From Actinomycetota bacterium (GTDB lineage: Bacteria > Actinomycetota > Thermoleophilia > Solirubrobacterales > Solirubrobacteraceae), in assembly GCA_005885515.1 (NCBI GenBank), contig VAWK01000018.1:35934-86220 (forward strand): a stretch of 50,287 nucleotides of DNA, written 5' to 3'. The notes below the pieces were generated by a model. That model ran no database searches, was not told where the DNA came from, and saw nothing but the letters and a program-made list of their open reading frames with translations. This document shows positions 39,815-50,287 of the stretch, piece after piece. The position numbers were made by a program, and so were the translations under genes. How positions within the stretch are numbered: position 1 is the stretch's first letter; the number at the start of each line of letters is the position of its first letter.

Positions 39815-40617
39815 GCGTGACCCATCGCACCCGCGTCCCGGCGACGCCCGCGAGCGACCACGCCGAAGTCGTGTGGCACGACCTCGAGTGCGGCTCCTAC
39901 CGCGCGGACTTGCCGTTGTGGCGCGAGCTGGCGGCCCGCAATCCAGGGCCGATCCTCGAGATTGGCGCGGGCACCGGCCGGGTGGCGCTCGAGCTGGCCC
40001 GGGCCGGACATGTGGTCACGGCGCTCGAGCGCGAGCCGGCGCTGCTTGACGCGCTGCGGCGCCGCCCGGGCGCAGAGCGGGCGCGCACTGTGTGCGCCGA
40101 CGCCCGGGGCGTTGAGCTTCCGCAGGCGCGCTTCGCGCTGTGCCTGGTGCCGATGCAGATGATCCAGCTGCTGAGCGGGCCGAGTGAGCGAGCGCGCTTC
40201 CTGAGCCGCGTTCGCGCCACGCTGCGCCGCGGCGGGCTGCTGGCGTGCGCTGTGCTCGCGCGCGTGGACCCGTTCGCCTGCGCCTCGGGGGAAGCTGGGC
40301 CCGCGCCGGAGACGGTGCGAATCGACGGACTGCTCTACACGAGCCGGGCGACGCGCGTCGCGGTCGGCAGGACGCAGATCGTGATCGAGCGCGAGCGCCG
40401 CATCCTCGAGCCGCGGGGGCGCAGCACGCTCAAGGCGCTGGCTGCATCGCGCACAAGGCTGCTGCGCGTCGAGCACAACGTGGTCGGGCTCGAGCGCCTC
40501 AGCCCGCGCACGCTCCAGCGCGAGGGCGGCGCCGCCGGCATGCGCGTGGAGCCGGTGCGCGAGGTGTCGGCGACCGCGGACCACACGGGCAGCACGGTGG
40601 TGATGCTTCGTGCATGA
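39805..40617 (+). CDS. SAM-dependent methyltransferase between murT and gatD
   Basis: A 270-residue class I methyltransferase: ILEIGAGTGRVALELARAG (motif I), VVTALEREPALLDALRRR, and a C-terminal half with LVPMQMIQLLSGPSERARFLSRV and RGGLLACAVLARVDPF. It starts (GTG 39805) within the end of murT and ends over the first codons of gatD (40610), so all three are translated together. This order suggests a role tied to lipid II or muropeptide chemistry, or merely linked expression. The acceptor is unknown. Confidence 0.87.
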   Translation: MGLSVTHRTRVPATPASDHAEVVWHDLECGSYRADLPLWRELAARNPGPILEIGAGTGRVALELARAGHVVTALEREPALLDALRRRPGAERARTVCADARGVELPQARFALCLVPMQMIQLLSGPSERARFLSRVRATLRRGGLLACAVLARVDPFACASGEAGPAPETVRIDGLLYTSRATRVAVGRTQIVIERERRILEPRGRSTLKALAASRTRLLRVEHNVVGLERLSPRTLQREGGAAGMRVEPVREVSATADHTGSTVVMLRA

Positions 40618-41407
40618 GTCTCCTGCTGGCCTCGGCGCCGCACGCGTGCTGCGCGTGTGCGCGCTGTATCCGGACCTGATGAACATCTACGCCGACCGCG
40701 GCAATCTGCTCGTGCTGGAGCGTCGCTGCCTCTGGCGCGGCATCGGCTTCGAGCTGTCCGCGAGCGGCCTCGGGGAGCCGCTGGACGCGGAACGCCACGA
40801 CCTGTACTACCTCGGCGGCGGCCAGGATCGCGACCAGCGCTTGTGCGCCGCTGACCTGGTCGAGCGCAAGCGCGAGGCACTGCATACGGCCGCCGCGCGC
40901 GGCGCCGTCGTGCTCGGCGTGTGCGGCGGCTATCAGTTGCTCGGGCACTCCTACACGCTCGGCGAGGAGCAGATCGCGGGAGTCGGGCTGCTCGACGTGC
41001 GCACCGTGCGGTCCGAGGGCCCGCGCCTGATCGGCAACGTCGCGATCGAGGCCTCGCTGCCCGACGGCGCCGGACCGGCCGCGCAGCGCGGGACGGCCGC
41101 CGCGCGCGACCACGTGCTGGCTGGCTTTGAGAATCATGGCGGTCGCACGCAGCTGGGAGCAGAGGCGCTGGCGTTGGGGCGCGTGTTGAAGGGACACGGC
41201 AACGATGGACGCAGCGGGCTGGAGGGCGCGAGGCGGGGCAGTATTGTCGGCACCTACCTGCACGGTCCGCTGCTGCCCAAGAACGCGTGGTTCGCCGACT
41301 GGCTGATCGCCCGCGCGCTGGCGATCGATCCAGGCGAGCTCGCGCCGCTCGATGACCGGCTGGAGCGCGCCGCACATCTCGGCGCGCGGCGCGCGGCCGG
41401 CGTGTGA
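40610..41407 (+). CDS. gatD: Lipid II isoglutaminyl synthase, GatD glutaminase subunit
   Basis: A 265-residue class I glutaminase of the CobB/CobQ type, partner of MurT. It has RVCALYPDLMNIYADRGNLLVLERRC, LYYLGGGQDRDQ, the nucleophile GVCGGYQLLGHSY (Cys about residue 104) and the catalytic His in SIVGTYLHGPLLPKN. It releases ammonia from glutamine for MurT. GTG 40610 overlaps the methyltransferase stop by 8 bases; an internal GTG is possible but less natural. Length and motifs match GatD. Confidence 0.94.
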   Translation: MHESPAGLGAARVLRVCALYPDLMNIYADRGNLLVLERRCLWRGIGFELSASGLGEPLDAERHDLYYLGGGQDRDQRLCAADLVERKREALHTAAARGAVVLGVCGGYQLLGHSYTLGEEQIAGVGLLDVRTVRSEGPRLIGNVAIEASLPDGAGPAAQRGTAAARDHVLAGFENHGGRTQLGAEALALGRVLKGHGNDGRSGLEGARRGSIVGTYLHGPLLPKNAWFADWLIARALAIDPGELAPLDDRLERAAHLGARRAAGV

Positions 41408-41879: not shown

Positions 41880-43211
41880 CTAGGCGGACGGCGGGGCGAC
41901 CACGAAGCGCGCGAAGCGCGCCGCCAGCCGGGCCGGCAGCAGCGCCCGCACCCGCACCCCCTCGGGGGTGTCCTGGCGGCTCACGTCCCCGGCGAGCTCG
42001 TGCAGCTCGGCCAGTCTTCCGCCCTCCGCGTACGGCACCAGCAGCTCGACGCGGCGCAGGAAGTGAAGCAGCGCCGCCTCGATGCGCGCGCCGAGCTCCT
42101 CCAGCCCCTCGCCCGAATGACCGCTCACGAGCACGGCCTCGGGGTGGTGCAGCCGCAGCTCCTCGCGGGCGGCGTGATCGAGCAGGTCGATCTTGTTGAG
42201 CACCAGCAGGCGCGGGCGATCTGCCGCGCCGATCTCGGCCAGCGTGTGCTCGACCGCGCCCTTCATGACCTCGATGCGCGCCTCGGTCGCGGAGGCGTCG
42301 AGCACGTGCACGAGCAGGTCCGCCCTGCGCGTCTCCTCCAACGTGGCCGCGAACGCGTCGACGAGCTGGTGCGGCAGCTTGGAGATGAAGCCGACGGTGT
42401 CGGTGAGCAGATACGCCCTGCCGCTGAGGCGCAACATCCGGATCGTGGGGTCCAGCGTGTGAAACAGGCGATCGCGGACTCCAACCTCGGCGTCGGTGAG
42501 CGCATTCAGAAGCGTGGACTTGCCGGCGTTGGTGTAACCGACGAGGGCGATCGTCGGCGTAGCCGCGCGCTCGCGCTGCGAACGCTGGACGGCGCGCGTC
42601 CGCTTCACGCGCTCGAGTCGGCGCCGCAGGGCCGCGATGCGGTCGCGCGCGAGGCGCCGGTCGGTCTCGATCTGGGTCTCCCCCGGCCCTCTGGTCCCGA
42701 TGCCGCCGCCGAGCCGCTCGAGGTGACTCCACAGCCCGCGCATGCGCGCGAGGTTGTACTCGAGCTGGGCCAGCTCCACCTGGAGCTTGCCCTCGGCGGT
42801 GCCCGCGTGCGAGGCGAAGATGTCGAGGATCACGGTCGTTCGGTCGACCACCGGTAGACCGAGCGCCTCCTCGAGCGTGCGCTCCTGGCGTGCGCTGAGC
42901 TCGTCATCACAGGCGATCAGGTTGGCGTCGCACGCCCGCGCGACGACCTTGATCTCAGCGACCTTCCCGGGGCCAACATAGCTGTTGGGATGAGGCTGCT
43001 CGCGCCGCTGGACGAGCTCGCCCACGACCGCCACGCCCGCTGTCCACAACAGCTCGCCGAGCTCCCCGAGGTCCTCCTCGTCGCCGCTCGACACGGCCGC
43101 GACGCACAGCGCGCGCTGGCGCGCGCGTGCGGCCGCCTGGGCCCCGTCCGCGACCGTCGCGGCGACAGGCCCGGGCGTTACGGCGCGGCGGCCATTGCGG
43201 CTCCTGTCCAT
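41880..43211 (-). CDS. hflX: GTPase HflX
   Basis: A 443-residue ribosome-associated GTPase that rescues stalled ribosomes after stress. The N-terminal HflX domain has NSYVGPGKVAEI and DDELSARQERTLEEALGLPVVDRTTVILDIFA, then GTRGPGETQIETDRR. The G domain has G1 GYTNAGKST, G3 DTVGFI and G4 NKIDLLD. It is the last gene of a minus-strand run miaA-dapF-dapL-hflX, with gaps of 81, 52 and 91 bases, which resembles arrangements common in actinobacteria and firmicutes. The ATG at 43211 gives a normal head. Confidence 0.95.
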   Translation of the reverse strand: MDRSRNGRRAVTPGPVAATVADGAQAAARARQRALCVAAVSSGDEEDLGELGELLWTAGVAVVGELVQRREQPHPNSYVGPGKVAEIKVVARACDANLIACDDELSARQERTLEEALGLPVVDRTTVILDIFASHAGTAEGKLQVELAQLEYNLARMRGLWSHLERLGGGIGTRGPGETQIETDRRLARDRIAALRRRLERVKRTRAVQRSQRERAATPTIALVGYTNAGKSTLLNALTDAEVGVRDRLFHTLDPTIRMLRLSGRAYLLTDTVGFISKLPHQLVDAFAATLEETRRADLLVHVLDASATEARIEVMKGAVEHTLAEIGAADRPRLLVLNKIDLLDHAAREELRLHHPEAVLVSGHSGEGLEELGARIEAALLHFLRRVELLVPYAEGGRLAELHELAGDVSRQDTPEGVRVRALLPARLAARFARFVVAPPSA

Positions 43212-43302: not shown

Positions 43303-44469
43303 CTAGGCGGCCAGGGCGCCGAGCCTGTGGACCGCCTCGAGCAGGCGGGCATCGGGCGTCGTGAGCGAGATGCGAAACCAGCCCTCCCCCGCGGGGCCAT
43401 AGATGGCGCCGGGCGAGAGCACCACCGCGGCGTGCTCGAGCACATGCGCGCAGTAGGCCTCCGAGCCCGAGAATCCCTCCGGCACCGGCGCCCACACGTA
43501 GATCGTCGCGCGCGGAGGGCGGACCTGGACACCGATCGCGCGCAGCGCCTCGCACACGAGATCGCGCCTGCGCAGGTAGAGCTCGCGCATCGAGGCCACC
43601 TCCGCATCGGTCTCGGGCGACAGCGCCGCGATGCCCGCCAGCTGAACGGCCTCGAACAGGCCGGAGTCGATGTTTGTCTTCAGCCGCCAGTAGATCTCCA
43701 GCGCCTCGGCGTTCCCCACCGCGACGGCGCAGCGCCAGCCGGTCATGTTGTAGCCCTTGGACAGCGAGAAGATCTCGATGCCCACCTCCTTGGCTCCCGG
43801 CGTGGCCAGGAACGAAGGCGCGCGATAGCCGTCGAAGGTGATCTCCGAGTAGCTGTTGTCGTGCACCACGAGGATCTCGTAGGCGCGGGCAAACTCCACG
43901 ACGCGCTCGAAGAGACCCTCCGGCACGATCGCCCCGGTGGGGTTGTTCGGGTAGTTCAGGAACATCAGCTTGGCGCGCCGCGCCACCTCATCGTCGATCG
44001 CTGCGAGGTCCGGCGCAAAGCCCTGCTCTGGCTCGAGCGCCATCAGCACCGGCTCGGCTCCGGCGAGCCACGGACCGCCCGTGTACACGGGGTAGCCGGG
44101 GTCCGCCGCCAAGGCGAAGTCGCCGCCGTCGAGGAAGGCGAGGCTGACGTTGAAGATCGCCTCCTTGGCGCCAATCGCAGGCATGATCTCGCGCTCGGGA
44201 TCGAGGCTCACGTCGAAGCGTCGCTCGTAGAAGTCACGTACCGCGCCTCTGAAGTCTGCACGGCCGCGGTTGCTCGGATAGCGATGTGTCTCAGGCTCGC
44301 TCACGGCCTCCTGCATCGCCTCCACGATCAGCGGCGGCGTCGGCCGGTCGGGATCTCCGATCCCCAGGCTGATCACGTCGACCCCGGCGGCGCGCTTGGC
44401 CGCGATCTGGCGCTCGAGCCGCGCGAACGCATACGGCGGGATGCGCTGCAGGCGCCCGCTCGCTTTCAT
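43303..44469 (-). CDS. dapL: LL-diaminopimelate aminotransferase-like enzyme
   Basis: A 388-residue PLP aminotransferase of fold type I. Motifs are LGIGDPDRPTPPLIVEAM, YPSNRGRADFRGAV, NYPNNPTGAI, HDNSYSEITFDGY and the PLP-binding SLSKGYNMTGWR. These fit the DapL group that makes LL-diaminopimelate directly from tetrahydrodipicolinate. A broader aspartate-type aminotransferase is possible, but dapF next door supports lysine and wall synthesis. The first Met (44469) gives MKASGRLQRIPPYAFARLERQI, the usual opening; an upstream in-frame ATG would extend into dapF. Confidence 0.9.
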   Translation of the reverse strand: MKASGRLQRIPPYAFARLERQIAAKRAAGVDVISLGIGDPDRPTPPLIVEAMQEAVSEPETHRYPSNRGRADFRGAVRDFYERRFDVSLDPEREIMPAIGAKEAIFNVSLAFLDGGDFALAADPGYPVYTGGPWLAGAEPVLMALEPEQGFAPDLAAIDDEVARRAKLMFLNYPNNPTGAIVPEGLFERVVEFARAYEILVVHDNSYSEITFDGYRAPSFLATPGAKEVGIEIFSLSKGYNMTGWRCAVAVGNAEALEIYWRLKTNIDSGLFEAVQLAGIAALSPETDAEVASMRELYLRRRDLVCEALRAIGVQVRPPRATIYVWAPVPEGFSGSEAYCAHVLEHAAVVLSPGAIYGPAGEGWFRISLTTPDARLLEAVHRLGALAA

Positions 44470-44521: not shown

Positions 44522-45397
44522 TCATGCGGCTTGCCGCAGCTCGCTGACGAACTCCTCGCTGAGGCGACCCTCGAACACCGGCAGCGCCCAGCCCGAGAGG
44601 CACACATGCAAGCGTGTGTCTACCTCGACCTCGAGCTCGCCGCCATCGAGCACGACGGTCACCCGTGCGGGTCCGCTGCCCGCCCCGAGCAGCCGCTCGC
44701 GATTGCCGAGCACGTAGGCCACCGCAGCGCCGCTCGCTCCCGTGCCGGAAGACAGCGTCTCCCCCACTCCCCGCTCGAATATGCGCGCGCGAATGCGTGC
44801 CTGCGATCCCGGCTCGAGCTCGGCGTACCAGGACACGTTCGTGCGGTTGGGAAAGGCCGGGTTGCGTTCGATCGGCGGGCCCAGCTCTGCGAGGTCGAGC
44901 TCCATGAGCGTGGCCTGATCCTGCACCCGGATCGCGATCTGAGGATTGCCGATCGAGACGTGCTGAAAGCGCCAGCCGTCAAACTCGCCCAAGCCATCGG
45001 CGGGGCCGGCGGGGAAGTCCTTGGACTGCAGCCTCGCCCGCCCGAGCTCCATGCGACAGCTCAGTGGACCGGTGATCGTCGGCTTGACCGGCCCGGCGGC
45101 GGTGTGAACGGTGAATTCGTCGCGATCGGTCCAGCCGCGCCGGCGCAGGTATAGGACGGCCTCGCGCGCGCCGTTGCCCGACAGCTCCGCCTCCGAGCCG
45201 TCGGGGTTGAAGATGCGCAGGTCTGCCACATGGGCCGGATCGGCCGGCGCCGACAGGAGCAGGATCCCGTCGGCGCCGACGCCGCGATGGCGCTCGCAGA
45301 GCAGGCGCACGCGGGCGGGCGTGACGGGGAACGGCATGGCCTCGCGCTCGACGATCAGATAGTCGTTGCCCAGCGCCTGCCAGCTCTCAAACCTCAT
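44522..45397 (-). CDS. dapF: Diaminopimelate epimerase (DapF) with both catalytic Cys replaced by Ser
   Basis: A 291-residue two-lobed PLP-independent epimerase fold that would convert LL- to meso-diaminopimelate for lysine and peptidoglycan. Family segments are FESWQALGNDYLIVE, HRGVGADGILLL, RIFNPDGSEAELSGNGARE, QHVSIGNPQIAIRV, NRTNVSWYAEL, RIFERGVGETLSSGTGA and VEVDTRLHVCLSGWALPVFEG. The catalytic Cys73 and Cys217 of the known enzyme are Ser73 (SGNG) and Ser217 (SGTG). Activity by the usual two-base thiol route is therefore uncertain. ATG 45397 is used; dapL follows 52 bases downstream, so the pathway context is clear. Confidence 0.88.
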   Translation of the reverse strand: MRFESWQALGNDYLIVEREAMPFPVTPARVRLLCERHRGVGADGILLLSAPADPAHVADLRIFNPDGSEAELSGNGAREAVLYLRRRGWTDRDEFTVHTAAGPVKPTITGPLSCRMELGRARLQSKDFPAGPADGLGEFDGWRFQHVSIGNPQIAIRVQDQATLMELDLAELGPPIERNPAFPNRTNVSWYAELEPGSQARIRARIFERGVGETLSSGTGASGAAVAYVLGNRERLLGAGSGPARVTVVLDGGELEVEVDTRLHVCLSGWALPVFEGRLSEEFVSELRQAA

Positions 45398-45478: not shown

Positions 45479-46438
45479 CTAGCCCCAGGCGGCGAGGATC
45501 TCGTGCGCCACCGAGGCGGGATCGCGGCCACTTACGTCGATCAGGTGCAGCCCGGCGAGCTTGCGCATCCACGTCAGCTGGCGGCGGGCGTAATTGCGAG
45601 TACGGCGGCGCATGCGCTCGACGTCGCCGGCGAGCAGCTCCTCGAAGCCGAGTGCCTTGCGCGCCGTGTCCGAGGCGCCCGCCGCGTGCGCCCGCAGGAC
45701 CTGCTCGCGAGCGCCCGCGGCGAGCATTTCGCGCACGCGCGCGTCGATGCGCGCGTGCAGCGCCTGGCGCTCCATGACCAGGCCGACGAGCAGCGTCGGA
45801 TGGCGCAGCTCGCCGCTCCACAGCTGCGAGGGCCCCTCCGGCGGCTCGAGCTCGCCCGCGTCCAGCAGCTCCAGCGCGCGCACCAGCCGTTGCGCGTCGT
45901 GCGGGTCGATCTCCCGGGCCGCCCACGCCGCGCGCCTTTCGAGCAGCCCGTGAAGGGCAACTGCGCCGCGCGCGCGCAGCTCCGCGCTCCAGCGCTCGCG
46001 CGCTCCTTCCGCAGGCGGCGGGCGCAGGTCAAGCTCGCCCAGGGCGGCACGCAGGTAAAGGCCCGTCCCGCCCACCACGAGCGGCCGCCGCCCGGCAGCG
46101 AGCAGGCCATCGATCTCGGCATGTGCGAGCGCCGCGTACTGGCCAGCGCTGAACGTGGCGTCAAGCGGCAGGAACGAGATCAGCCTGTGCTCGAGCGCCG
46201 CGCGCTCGGCCGGCGAGGGAACGCCCGTGAGAAGCTCCAGGCCGCGGTACACCTGCAGGGCGTCTGCCGACACGGCGACGGGGTGCTCGCCGCGGCTGCG
46301 CAGCAGCTCCGCTAGCGCGATCGCGATCGCGGTCTTGCCCACCGCGGTGGGGCCGAACAGGGCGAGCACCTCAGGGCGCGCCGGCGGCCCAAGGCGCGTC
46401 TGCGGCTCAGCACGCGTCGTTGAGGAATGTGCGTCCAT
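45479..46438 (-). CDS. miaA: tRNA dimethylallyltransferase
   Basis: Adds a dimethylallyl group to A37 of tRNAs reading codons that begin with U. The 319-residue protein has the P-loop LFGPTAVGKTAIAIALAE, SADALQVYRGL (DSRQ-like, here with Ala-Leu), LVVGGTGLYLRA, RDPHDAQRLVRALE-like residues in EIDPHDAQRLVRALELL, and TRNYARRQLTWMRK near the end. The ATG at 46438 fits; another ATG at 46531 adds low-quality residues. First gene of the minus-strand run with dapF, dapL and hflX. Confidence 0.94.
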   Translation of the reverse strand: MDAHSSTTRAEPQTRLGPPARPEVLALFGPTAVGKTAIAIALAELLRSRGEHPVAVSADALQVYRGLELLTGVPSPAERAALEHRLISFLPLDATFSAGQYAALAHAEIDGLLAAGRRPLVVGGTGLYLRAALGELDLRPPPAEGARERWSAELRARGAVALHGLLERRAAWAAREIDPHDAQRLVRALELLDAGELEPPEGPSQLWSGELRHPTLLVGLVMERQALHARIDARVREMLAAGAREQVLRAHAAGASDTARKALGFEELLAGDVERMRRRTRNYARRQLTWMRKLAGLHLIDVSGRDPASVAHEILAAWG

Positions 46439-46548
46439 GGGTTCAAGTATCGCGAGGTGCACGCCGCGCGCAGCGGCTCTTCGCGCGGTGTGCCGCGGCC
46501 GTCGGGCGTGCACGCAGCGAGTCATTGGCATACGCTTGCCGCCCGCGC

Positions 46549-48622: not shown

Positions 48623-50287
48623 TCAGAACAGGGTGCCCTGGCGCGCGATGCGTCCCTCGCCCGGCGCCGCGGGAGCGCCTTGCCGTGCGGGCGCGGGTGC
48701 GGGCTCGACCGCCCTTGGCCCGCTCGGTCTCTCGCGCCGGCGCACCAGCTGCGCCAAGCGCTCGCGTTCCTGTCGCGGCGCATACGCGCCGCGCCGATAG
48801 AGCTCCCTGTATCGCTTGAGCAGGTCGGGGCGCTTCGCCGCCAGCCAGCTCATGAACACCTCGCGCGTCTCCCCGCGCAGATGCAACGCCACCCCGCCCA
48901 CGCTCGTTGCCCCCGCCGCCTCGGCTCGCGCGAGCAGCGGCTCGAGCTGACGTGCGCTGTCGTTTATCCCGGGCATGAGCGGCGCGATCAGCACGCCGGC
49001 GGCGATGCCTGACCGATTGAGCTCGGCCACGGCCTCCAGGCGCGCGCGGGGATGGGGCGTGTGTGGCTCGGTTTCCCGCCATGCCTTCTCGTCGAGCGTC
49101 GGGATCGACAGGCAGGCCGTGAAGCTCGTGCGCTGCGCGATCTGCAGCATCAGCCGCAGGTCGCGCAACAACAGCGGCGACTTCGTCAGCACCGAGCACG
49201 GGTTGGCCGCGTCTCGCAGCGCCTCCCAGATGCCCTCCATCAGCCGGTAGCGCCCCTCGACCCACTGGTAGGGGTCGGTATTCGTGCCCAGCGCGACGTG
49301 TTCGTGTCTCCACGAGCGCCGCGCCAGCTCGGTGCGCAGCAGCTCCGGGGCGTTGACCTTCACCACGATCTCGCGCTCGAAGTCGCGGCCGGCGTTGAAG
49401 CCGAGGTAGGTGTGCGTGGGCCTGGCGAAGCAGTTGTGGCTGACGACGCCGTTGGCGATGAAATCTCCGGTTCCTGTCGTGAGGTCGTACAGGCGTTGCG
49501 TCATGCCGAGCGGGCGGATCGACACCACGCGGAGCCGTGCACCCGTCTTGAGCGCGTCGCCCTCGATCGTGCGCTTGCGGGTGATCGCCGGGTCCGTGCC
49601 GAGCAGGTAGCGCATGCGCTCCGGCAGACCGCCGCGCAGGCGGATGCAGGTGAGCCCGTTGCGGTTCGCCCGAGGCTCGACGGCGTAGTCGAAGCCTAAG
49701 CGAGCAAGACAGGCGCGGACCCAGGCGAGCATCTCAGGATCTGCGTTCGCGATCCGGAGCGTGTGCAGGCTGTGGGAGCCCTCGGCGTCGAAGATGCCTG
49801 CGAGGAACCCCCTGATCCACGACAGACTTGGAAGGATCGGCCAGCGGATCAGCTCAGAGACGCGCTCGACGCTCGCTCTGCTCTGAGGACGGATCGCGCT
49901 CATCCCGCGGCGGTTGCCCGCGGCAGCTGACAACGCAAATTCGCTCGTGAGCACGCCGAGACAGGTCAGGTAACCGCGTGCGCGCGTCAGCGCCTCGGTA
50001 TCGGCCAGCGCAAGGCGGAACCGGTGGGCTTCGCTGGTAGCGCGGCGCGGGCGCTGGTAGAGGTATGACCCGAGGTGTCCATCGCCGCGGATAACGCCGC
50101 GGAGATAGCCCCTGCGGTAGTCGTCGTCCACGACCGGCGGCGCGACGCATCCGCCCGTGCCCAGCAGCTTGCTGTTGGGCGTGAGATGCGGCCTCTGGTG
50201 CCGCCCCGATCCGGTGCCGATGACGTGCTTCCAGCCGCGGGCGGTCAGGAATCGGTGATCCTCGCTCGTGATCAGTTCGGTGCCATC
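48623..50287 (-). CDS. Rv2578c-type radical SAM protein with intein (partial, N-terminus beyond window)
   Basis: The C-terminal 270 residues (48623-49432) are a SplB-like radical SAM protein: CFARPTHTYLGFNAGRDFE, VALGTNTDPYQWVEG, VLTKSPLLLRDL, then a C-terminal RQGTLF. The frame upstream is an intein. By analogy with the family motif CSHGCRYCFARPTH, the intein is inserted just before the third Cys of the CxxxCxxC iron-sulfur motif. The extein head, with the first two Cys, lies beyond the right edge. The reaction is unknown. C-terminal RQGTLF resembles a clamp-binding motif. The window edge leaves the N-terminus unseen. Confidence 0.9.
   Translation of the reverse strand, partial: DGTELITSEDHRFLTARGWKHVIGTGSGRHQRPHLTPNSKLLGTGGCVAPPVVDDDYRRGYLRGVIRGDGHLGSYLYQRPRRATSEAHRFRLALADTEALTRARGYLTCLGVLTSEFALSAAAGNRRGMSAIRPQSRASVERVSELIRWPILPSLSWIRGFLAGIFDAEGSHSLHTLRIANADPEMLAWVRACLARLGFDYAVEPRANRNGLTCIRLRGGLPERMRYLLGTDPAITRKRTIEGDALKTGARLRVVSIRPLGMTQRLYDLTTGTGDFIANGVVSHNCFARPTHTYLGFNAGRDFEREIVVKVNAPELLRTELARRSWRHEHVALGTNTDPYQWVEGRYRLMEGIWEALRDAANPCSVLTKSPLLLRDLRLMLQIAQRTSFTACLSIPTLDEKAWRETEPHTPHPRARLEAVAELNRSGIAAGVLIAPLMPGINDSARQLEPLLARAEAAGATSVGGVALHLRGETREVFMSWLAAKRPDLLKRYRELYRRGAYAPRQERERLAQLVRRRERPSGPRAVEPAPAPARQGAPAAPGEGRIARQGTLF
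49433..50287 (-). mobile_element. Intein with LAGLIDADG homing endonuclease (partial)
   Basis: Intein block B is at the right edge (TSEDHRFLTARGWKHV). The DOD endonuclease motifs are YLRGVIRGDGHLGS and FLAGIFDAEGSHS. Blocks F and G are RLYDLTTGTGDFIANGVVSHN, split here for length, ending in the His-Asn splice pair followed by Cys+1 (codon 49432-49430). The N-terminal splice junction, block A, is beyond the window. With both splice residues and two DOD motifs present it looks active for splicing and maybe homing. Same insertion point as known inteins of this family. Confidence 0.9.

Follow-up and report, generated by a model that had tools for sequence, protein, structure and literature searches.

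Diaminopimelate (DAP) epimerase, DapF, is a textbook example of how a thiolate/thiol pair of cysteines removes a very weakly acidic α-proton, and aziDAP inhibitors bind its cysteines. Ordinary DapF (EC 5.1.1.7; families TIGR00652 and PF01678) is represented by the structures of the Anabaena (9MRO) and Haemophilus influenzae (1GQZ) enzymes. Here we analyse a dapF gene at positions 44522–45397 (minus strand) of a 50,287-nucleotide stretch of DNA, hereafter the window, from the genome of a soil actinobacterium of the order Solirubrobacterales (assembly GCA_005885515.1, contig VAWK01000018.1). The protein resembles ordinary DapF in its modelled fold, two-domain repeat, DAP contacts, gene context and orthology, but it has Ser73 and Ser217 in place of the two catalytic cysteines, and its order also carries H153Q, E189S and A223G. 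We think it probable that this protein is the cell's working DAP epimerase, a DapF orthologue in which serine has replaced both acid/base cysteines.

The matching substitutions exist singly in H. influenzae DapF as C73S (2Q9H) and C217S (2Q9J), both among the ten best Protein Data Bank matches of our structural model; these are engineered mutants, of a type designed to impede catalysis so that crystals can be obtained, whereas the two changes in the window are natural. Members of the proline racemase superfamily that lack one or both cysteines have been noted (PMC4113996). In 4-hydroxyproline 2-epimerase, a natural Ser93 replaces the first cysteine and two-base epimerisation by the Ser/Cys pair has been demonstrated, but the family and the substrate are different and just one cysteine is replaced. 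In trans-3-hydroxyproline dehydratase (Ser90/Thr256), both cysteines are absent and serine acts as a base, although dehydration needs a single base and involves no two-base stereoinversion (PMC4113996). In the open-access literature, we found nothing on point about a natural Ser/Ser DapF or about the DapF of the class concerned, which its named members identify as Thermoleophilia (PMC6834744).

A DapF with serine at both catalytic positions

The frame is full-length, running from an ATG at 45397 to a TGA and encoding 291 amino acids; starting instead from an in-frame GTG (45427) would yield 301, but homologues fit the ATG. Counted from this ATG, Ser73 is encoded by TCG (45179–45181) and Ser217 by TCC (44747–44749), at the positions of Cys73 and Cys217 in H. 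influenzae. The product contains DGSEAELSGNGAREA and, further on, ERGVGETLSSGTGASGAA. When aligned with four solved DapFs, from Anabaena (9mro), Acinetobacter (5ha4), Arabidopsis (3ejx) and Pseudomonas (8qzy), both serines fall on the catalytic cysteines, bearing out the preliminary description of this DNA. That description had placed the first motif, SGNG, at residues 71–76; the motif is present, but it occupies 73–76 in the 291-residue numbering.

The protein scored 171.4 bits against TIGR00652 (cut-off 114.65) and 124.7 against PF01678 (cut-off 34.7), the latter in two stretches that correspond to the two halves of the protein. With Ser/Ser, it falls outside the two-cysteine mechanistic class, which is defined by cysteine at both acid/base positions. 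A bifunctional DapF/glutamate racemase (NF038284) was rejected at 40.6 bits against a cut-off of 350, as was a serine-type 4-hydroxyproline 2-epimerase of the proline racemase superfamily, since NCBIfam and Pfam returned DapF models only.

An AlphaFold2 model built from a 41-row alignment had a mean pLDDT of 94.9, and DapF structures were its best Foldseek matches, consistent with the conserved fold proposed earlier. The top match was 9mro (TM score 0.82, E value 1.8e-28). Among the first 26 rows, 24 were DapF entries and two, at ranks 3 and 4, were O-ureidoserine racemase; hydroxyproline epimerase structures appeared at rank 27 and below, with 16–21% identity. Its descent, fold, binding site and context all mark the predicted protein as a DapF.

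The serine pair is invariant in the sampled rows of the order

We examined the two positions in two sets of sequences. Set A comprised 49 rows from genomes of the order, the window genome included: 44 of the 61 genomes searched (30 through their loci and 14 fetched) and five found through PF01678. These rows were found by whole-protein search or PF01678 and thus carry no bias toward serine. Set B comprised the best 80 of at least 559 stretches in named collections that encode a relative, and is biased at the second site because one of two peptide patterns used requires serine there. Its titles name Conexibacter arvalis, Patulibacter americanus and P. minatonensis along with numerous Solirubrobacterales and Thermoleophilaceae, some reading just Actinomycetota or bacterium; all 80 loci were grouped with the order as being the nearest matches. 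The two sets overlap and are not added as independent genomes, so that the '129 rows' mentioned below are simply 49 + 80.

All rows of both sets (49/49 and 80/80) carried Ser/Ser. One set B row has SGHG and another GVSLSSGTG, with the serine in place in both. The preliminary description had proposed such an alignment of Thermoleophilia homologues, and the identical pair throughout the two sets excludes a sequencing or assembly error. A whole-protein search found a homologue in each of the 61 genomes (the window genome and 60 relatives).

The codons are also informative. At site 217, all six serine codons occur in each set, with AGY in 8 rows of set A (49) and 15 of set B (80); at site 73, every row but one per set has TCN. 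Neither cysteine nor threonine was present at either site in any of the 129 rows. Single steps between TCN and AGY pass only through cysteine or threonine, the other path being a double change; drift at a dead site would give mixed residues, and mere tolerance of serine would leave some cysteine. The use of six serine codons at site 217 with no cysteine or threonine suggests, on an informal reading of rows that are related and partly duplicate, that serine itself is kept by selection.

A serine pair cannot form a disulfide. In the Corynebacterium glutamicum enzyme, peroxide leads to a disulfide between the catalytic cysteines and to loss of activity (PMC5296763). Our guess is that protection from such inactivation is possibly the reason for serine.

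Pathway context and copy number

The gene downstream of dapF on the same strand is dapL (43303–44469, minus strand), encoding LL-diaminopimelate aminotransferase, which makes LL-DAP. It had been reported as adjoining, and its product passed the cut-off of NF006756 (530 bits against 507) but not that of TIGR03540 (509 against 593). Its chosen ATG (MKASG) lies 52 bases past the dapF stop, an earlier start being possible. On the other side of dapF lies miaA (45479–46531, minus strand; TIGR00174, 153.1 bits, cut-off 148.65), given as the longest frame, with a true start possibly further in; beyond dapL lies hflX (41880–43211, minus strand; TIGR03156, over the cut-off). Both miaA and hflX are kept as neighbours in relatives. 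We compared these genes in the 80 set B loci and in 20 loci of family f7, which belongs to the class but lies outside the order. All four (miaA, dapF, aminotransferase and hflX) were matched in 63 of the 100 loci. Within set B, 60 loci had a codirectional dapL downstream, 11 had a distant aminotransferase match (30–37% identity) on the opposite strand, and nine, several of them on short contigs, had no aminotransferase in view. The other route to LL-DAP runs through dapD and dapC; in two Patulibacter loci and one f7 locus, dapF was adjoined by dapD (over the cut-off) and by a dapC-like gene, for which DapC was the best model at a score below the cut-off.

Lysine synthesis by LysA and a meso-DAP wall both need meso-DAP. 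lysA was present in all 61 genomes (57 over the cut-off) and MurE in 60 (55 over the cut-off). DNPR, the motif typical of a MurE that adds meso-DAP, was found in all 30 loci read; the MurE of the window genome is outside these 30. In published descriptions, meso-DAP is given as diagnostic for all Solirubrobacterales and for Conexibacter woesei (PMC3035278), and one Solirubrobacter strain also contained it (PMC10722151). For the wall of Gaiella, the open-access literature, including the accessible part of PMC6834744, yielded no usable statement. The needs of LysA and the wall imply that an epimerase is required, and the Ser/Ser DapF is the only candidate found.

The preliminary description had raised the prospect of a second, cysteine-bearing dapF in the window genome. 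None was found there, nor among 38 genomes of the order, nor in Conexibacter arvalis or two Patulibacter genomes. The window genome (G000, 92.4% complete) and these three named genomes each have one PF01678 gene over the cut-off, and all 38 genomes of the order have two half-domain matches, read as one gene. Of 33 f7 genomes, 31 likewise had two half-domain matches, one had three and one had none. A PF01678 match was absent from 8 of 150 genomes of the class; family f8 accounts for four of these, and f5, f6, f7 and f9 for one each. Of the eight, four are at least 96% complete. A DAP dehydrogenase (Ddh) bypass was rejected: no match passed the cut-off in any of the 61 genomes, and the weak partial matches in four of them had E values of 1.9e-4 to 7.7e-4.

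Descent of the serine pair

Outside the order, residues at the two sites vary in both the class and the phylum; the row counts that follow are not frequencies, and low-scoring matches from the phylum lie outside the sample. All 26 f7 rows were Ser/Ser, 16 of them picked from a PF01678 listing blind to the residue and 10 from a listing in which the first serine was visible. The rest of the class outside the order gave one Ser/Ser row (family f11), 37 Cys/Cys rows and five Ser/Cys rows. The Ser/Cys rows (L036, L038, L046, L048 and L053) belong to the otherwise Cys/Cys family f9 and represent a natural single exchange. One odd Ser/Ser row, L088, comes from an f6 genome with four PF01678 domain matches.

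From other classes of the phylum we took 70 rows: 30 top-scoring loci and 40 spread over families, with two second copies purposely included. Of these, 57 were Cys/Cys, nine Cys/Ser, two Ser/Cys and two Ser/Ser. The Cys/Ser rows (L275, L290–L292, L304, L305, L308, L310 and L311) fall in families f15, f23, f36, f44 and f50, and each of the nine genomes has one TIGR00652 match. Both Ser/Ser rows are second copies, in genomes (G471 and G572) that each carry a Cys/Cys copy too. These copies (L314:5304-6164, family f40; L315:4982-5923, family f26) have SATGA at the second site and are called DapF by NCBIfam; the former lies beside a thioredoxin reductase gene and the latter beside genes for DUF72 and glyoxalase-like proteins. 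Each is possibly a different racemase.

We built a 70-row tree with the two catalytic columns removed and L088 excluded. It placed 53 rows of the class opposite 17 rows of other classes (support 100/99). The 15 rows of the order formed one clade (100/99), and 13 f7 rows formed another (100/100), which joined the Cys/Cys family f5 at 93/91. A 114-row tree placed L088 among other classes, outside Thermoleophilia. The fewest changes needed were four at site 73 and five at site 217 on the 70-row tree, and six and seven, respectively, on the 114-row tree. A single origin of the 29 Ser/Ser rows in the 70-row tree was not rejected (approximately unbiased test, p 0.24), although the tree prefers at least two origins. 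As read from these topologies, ordinary DapF and the Ser/Ser protein of the order are orthologues, and cysteine and serine have been exchanged repeatedly at sites 73 and 217 in Actinomycetota.

Active-site residues

The DAP-contacting residues have been defined in Anabaena DapF (PMC12039745). By alignment, their equivalents N64, N151, N187, E208, R209 and T219 were present in all 129 rows, and N11 and N75 in 128 each, the remaining row having a gap and a histidine, respectively. Family f7 has serine or threonine at 219 and serine at 220. In the model, Ser73 lies immediately before helix 74–86 and Ser217 immediately before helix 218–231; in the Anabaena enzyme, the catalytic cysteines are at helix N-termini, which are thought to stabilise charge (PMC12039745).

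Alanine at positions 8, 58 and 80 is common to the order and f7 and rare in Cys/Cys rows, which points to local repacking of the protein. Ala80 also occurs in the f11 Ser/Ser row; every Ser/Cys and Cys/Ser row and the remaining Ser/Ser rows lack it. Together with H153Q, E189S and A223G, the shared alanines may be an adaptation that makes serine workable, although common ancestry could explain the alanines. A compensating cysteine was rejected, as no cysteine column was gained in both Ser/Ser lineages (the order and f7); Cys/Cys rows have Cys34, the order's most constant cysteine, just as often. Nor did we find a new acidic or basic residue that both lineages share and that few Cys/Cys rows have.

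Proposed mechanism and alternatives

According to the proposed mechanism, LL-DAP from the neighbouring DapL would be inverted at one α-carbon to yield meso-DAP for MurE in wall synthesis and for LysA in lysine synthesis. Ser73 and Ser217, at the starts of two helices in a pocket that closes around its substrate, would stand in for the thiolate/thiol pair: one hydroxyl, as an alkoxide-like base, would take the α-proton while the other donates a proton from the opposite face. Several points weigh against a working Ser/Ser epimerase. The pKa of a hydroxyl is far above that of a thiol, and we know of no Ser/Ser DapF with measured activity. H153Q, E189S and A223G, changes seen in the order, lie near active-site motifs and could mean an altered function. 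The window genome is 92% complete, so the lack of a second dapF there proves little by itself, and the search that included it and the named genomes gave four weak PF01678 matches (E values 0.02 to 0.96, none over the cut-off). In families f26 and f40, the Ser/Ser copy accompanies a Cys/Cys one, and Ser/Ser can therefore denote a paralogue in those families. Among related enzymes, the C101S and C233S mutants of PddB keep less than 0.1% of activity (PMC8225329), and C67S and C209S greatly reduce that of HisR (PMC11602996).

The nearly inactive mutants, the paralogues and the order-specific H153Q and E189S would also fit a protein that is inactive on DAP or acts on another amino acid, with meso-DAP coming from an unrecognised epimerase or a second dapF. 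We regard this as unlikely, as we do the different epimerase considered in the preliminary description: the DAP-contacting residues are unchanged, the gene in relatives has dapL, or else dapD with a dapC-like gene, close by, lysA is universal among the genomes searched, Ddh never passed its cut-off, and no second PF01678 gene was found in the 38 genomes of the order or, over the cut-off, in the three named ones. A slightly less likely explanation is that the protein epimerises DAP but that other groups (a compensating cysteine, water or another side chain) transfer the protons, serine just shaping the pocket. PhzF, which shares the fold and uses acidic residues, does match the model, and the repacking at Ala8, Ala58 and Ala80 could be read in the same way, but no cysteine or charged residue was gained in both lineages, Cys34 does not distinguish the order from Cys/Cys rows, and serine is invariant at precisely the two acid/base positions. 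Least likely, and to our minds very improbable, is that no meso-DAP is made, the wall carrying LL-DAP and the enzyme being vestigial. The conserved dapL does make LL-DAP, but an LL-DAP wall, also raised previously, conflicts with the meso-DAP reported for all Solirubrobacterales (PMC3035278) and for the Solirubrobacter strain (PMC10722151) and with lysA in all 61 genomes, and in a vestigial gene one would not expect serine to persist at both sites through six codons.

The retained DAP contacts, the DAP-gene neighbours, lysA, the lack of Ddh over its cut-off and the reported meso-DAP all argue for the working epimerase, and of the three readings offered in the preliminary description, a serine-supported route of epimerisation is the one that the sequence evidence favours. 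This natural, conserved Ser/Ser variant of DapF is very probably functional. If it does sustain the growth of an order whose members use meso-DAP, the reaction can do without thiol chemistry, and the Cys/Cys, Ser/Cys, Cys/Ser and Ser/Ser forms would make up a natural series for dissecting mismatched proton transfer. Ser/Ser DapFs should also withstand peroxide, thiol reagents and cysteine-alkylating DapF inhibitors.

Other features of the window

Two further frames were observed in the window. The frame at 40610–41407 (plus strand) is glutamine-amidotransferase-like (GVCGGYQLLG) and presumably similar to GatD, which acts together with MurT in wall peptide amidation. At 48623–50131 (minus strand), a stretch that we take to be intein-like, with a homing-endonuclease-like GDGHLG and the ending VVSHNC, lies ahead of what is presumably a radical-SAM-like protein.
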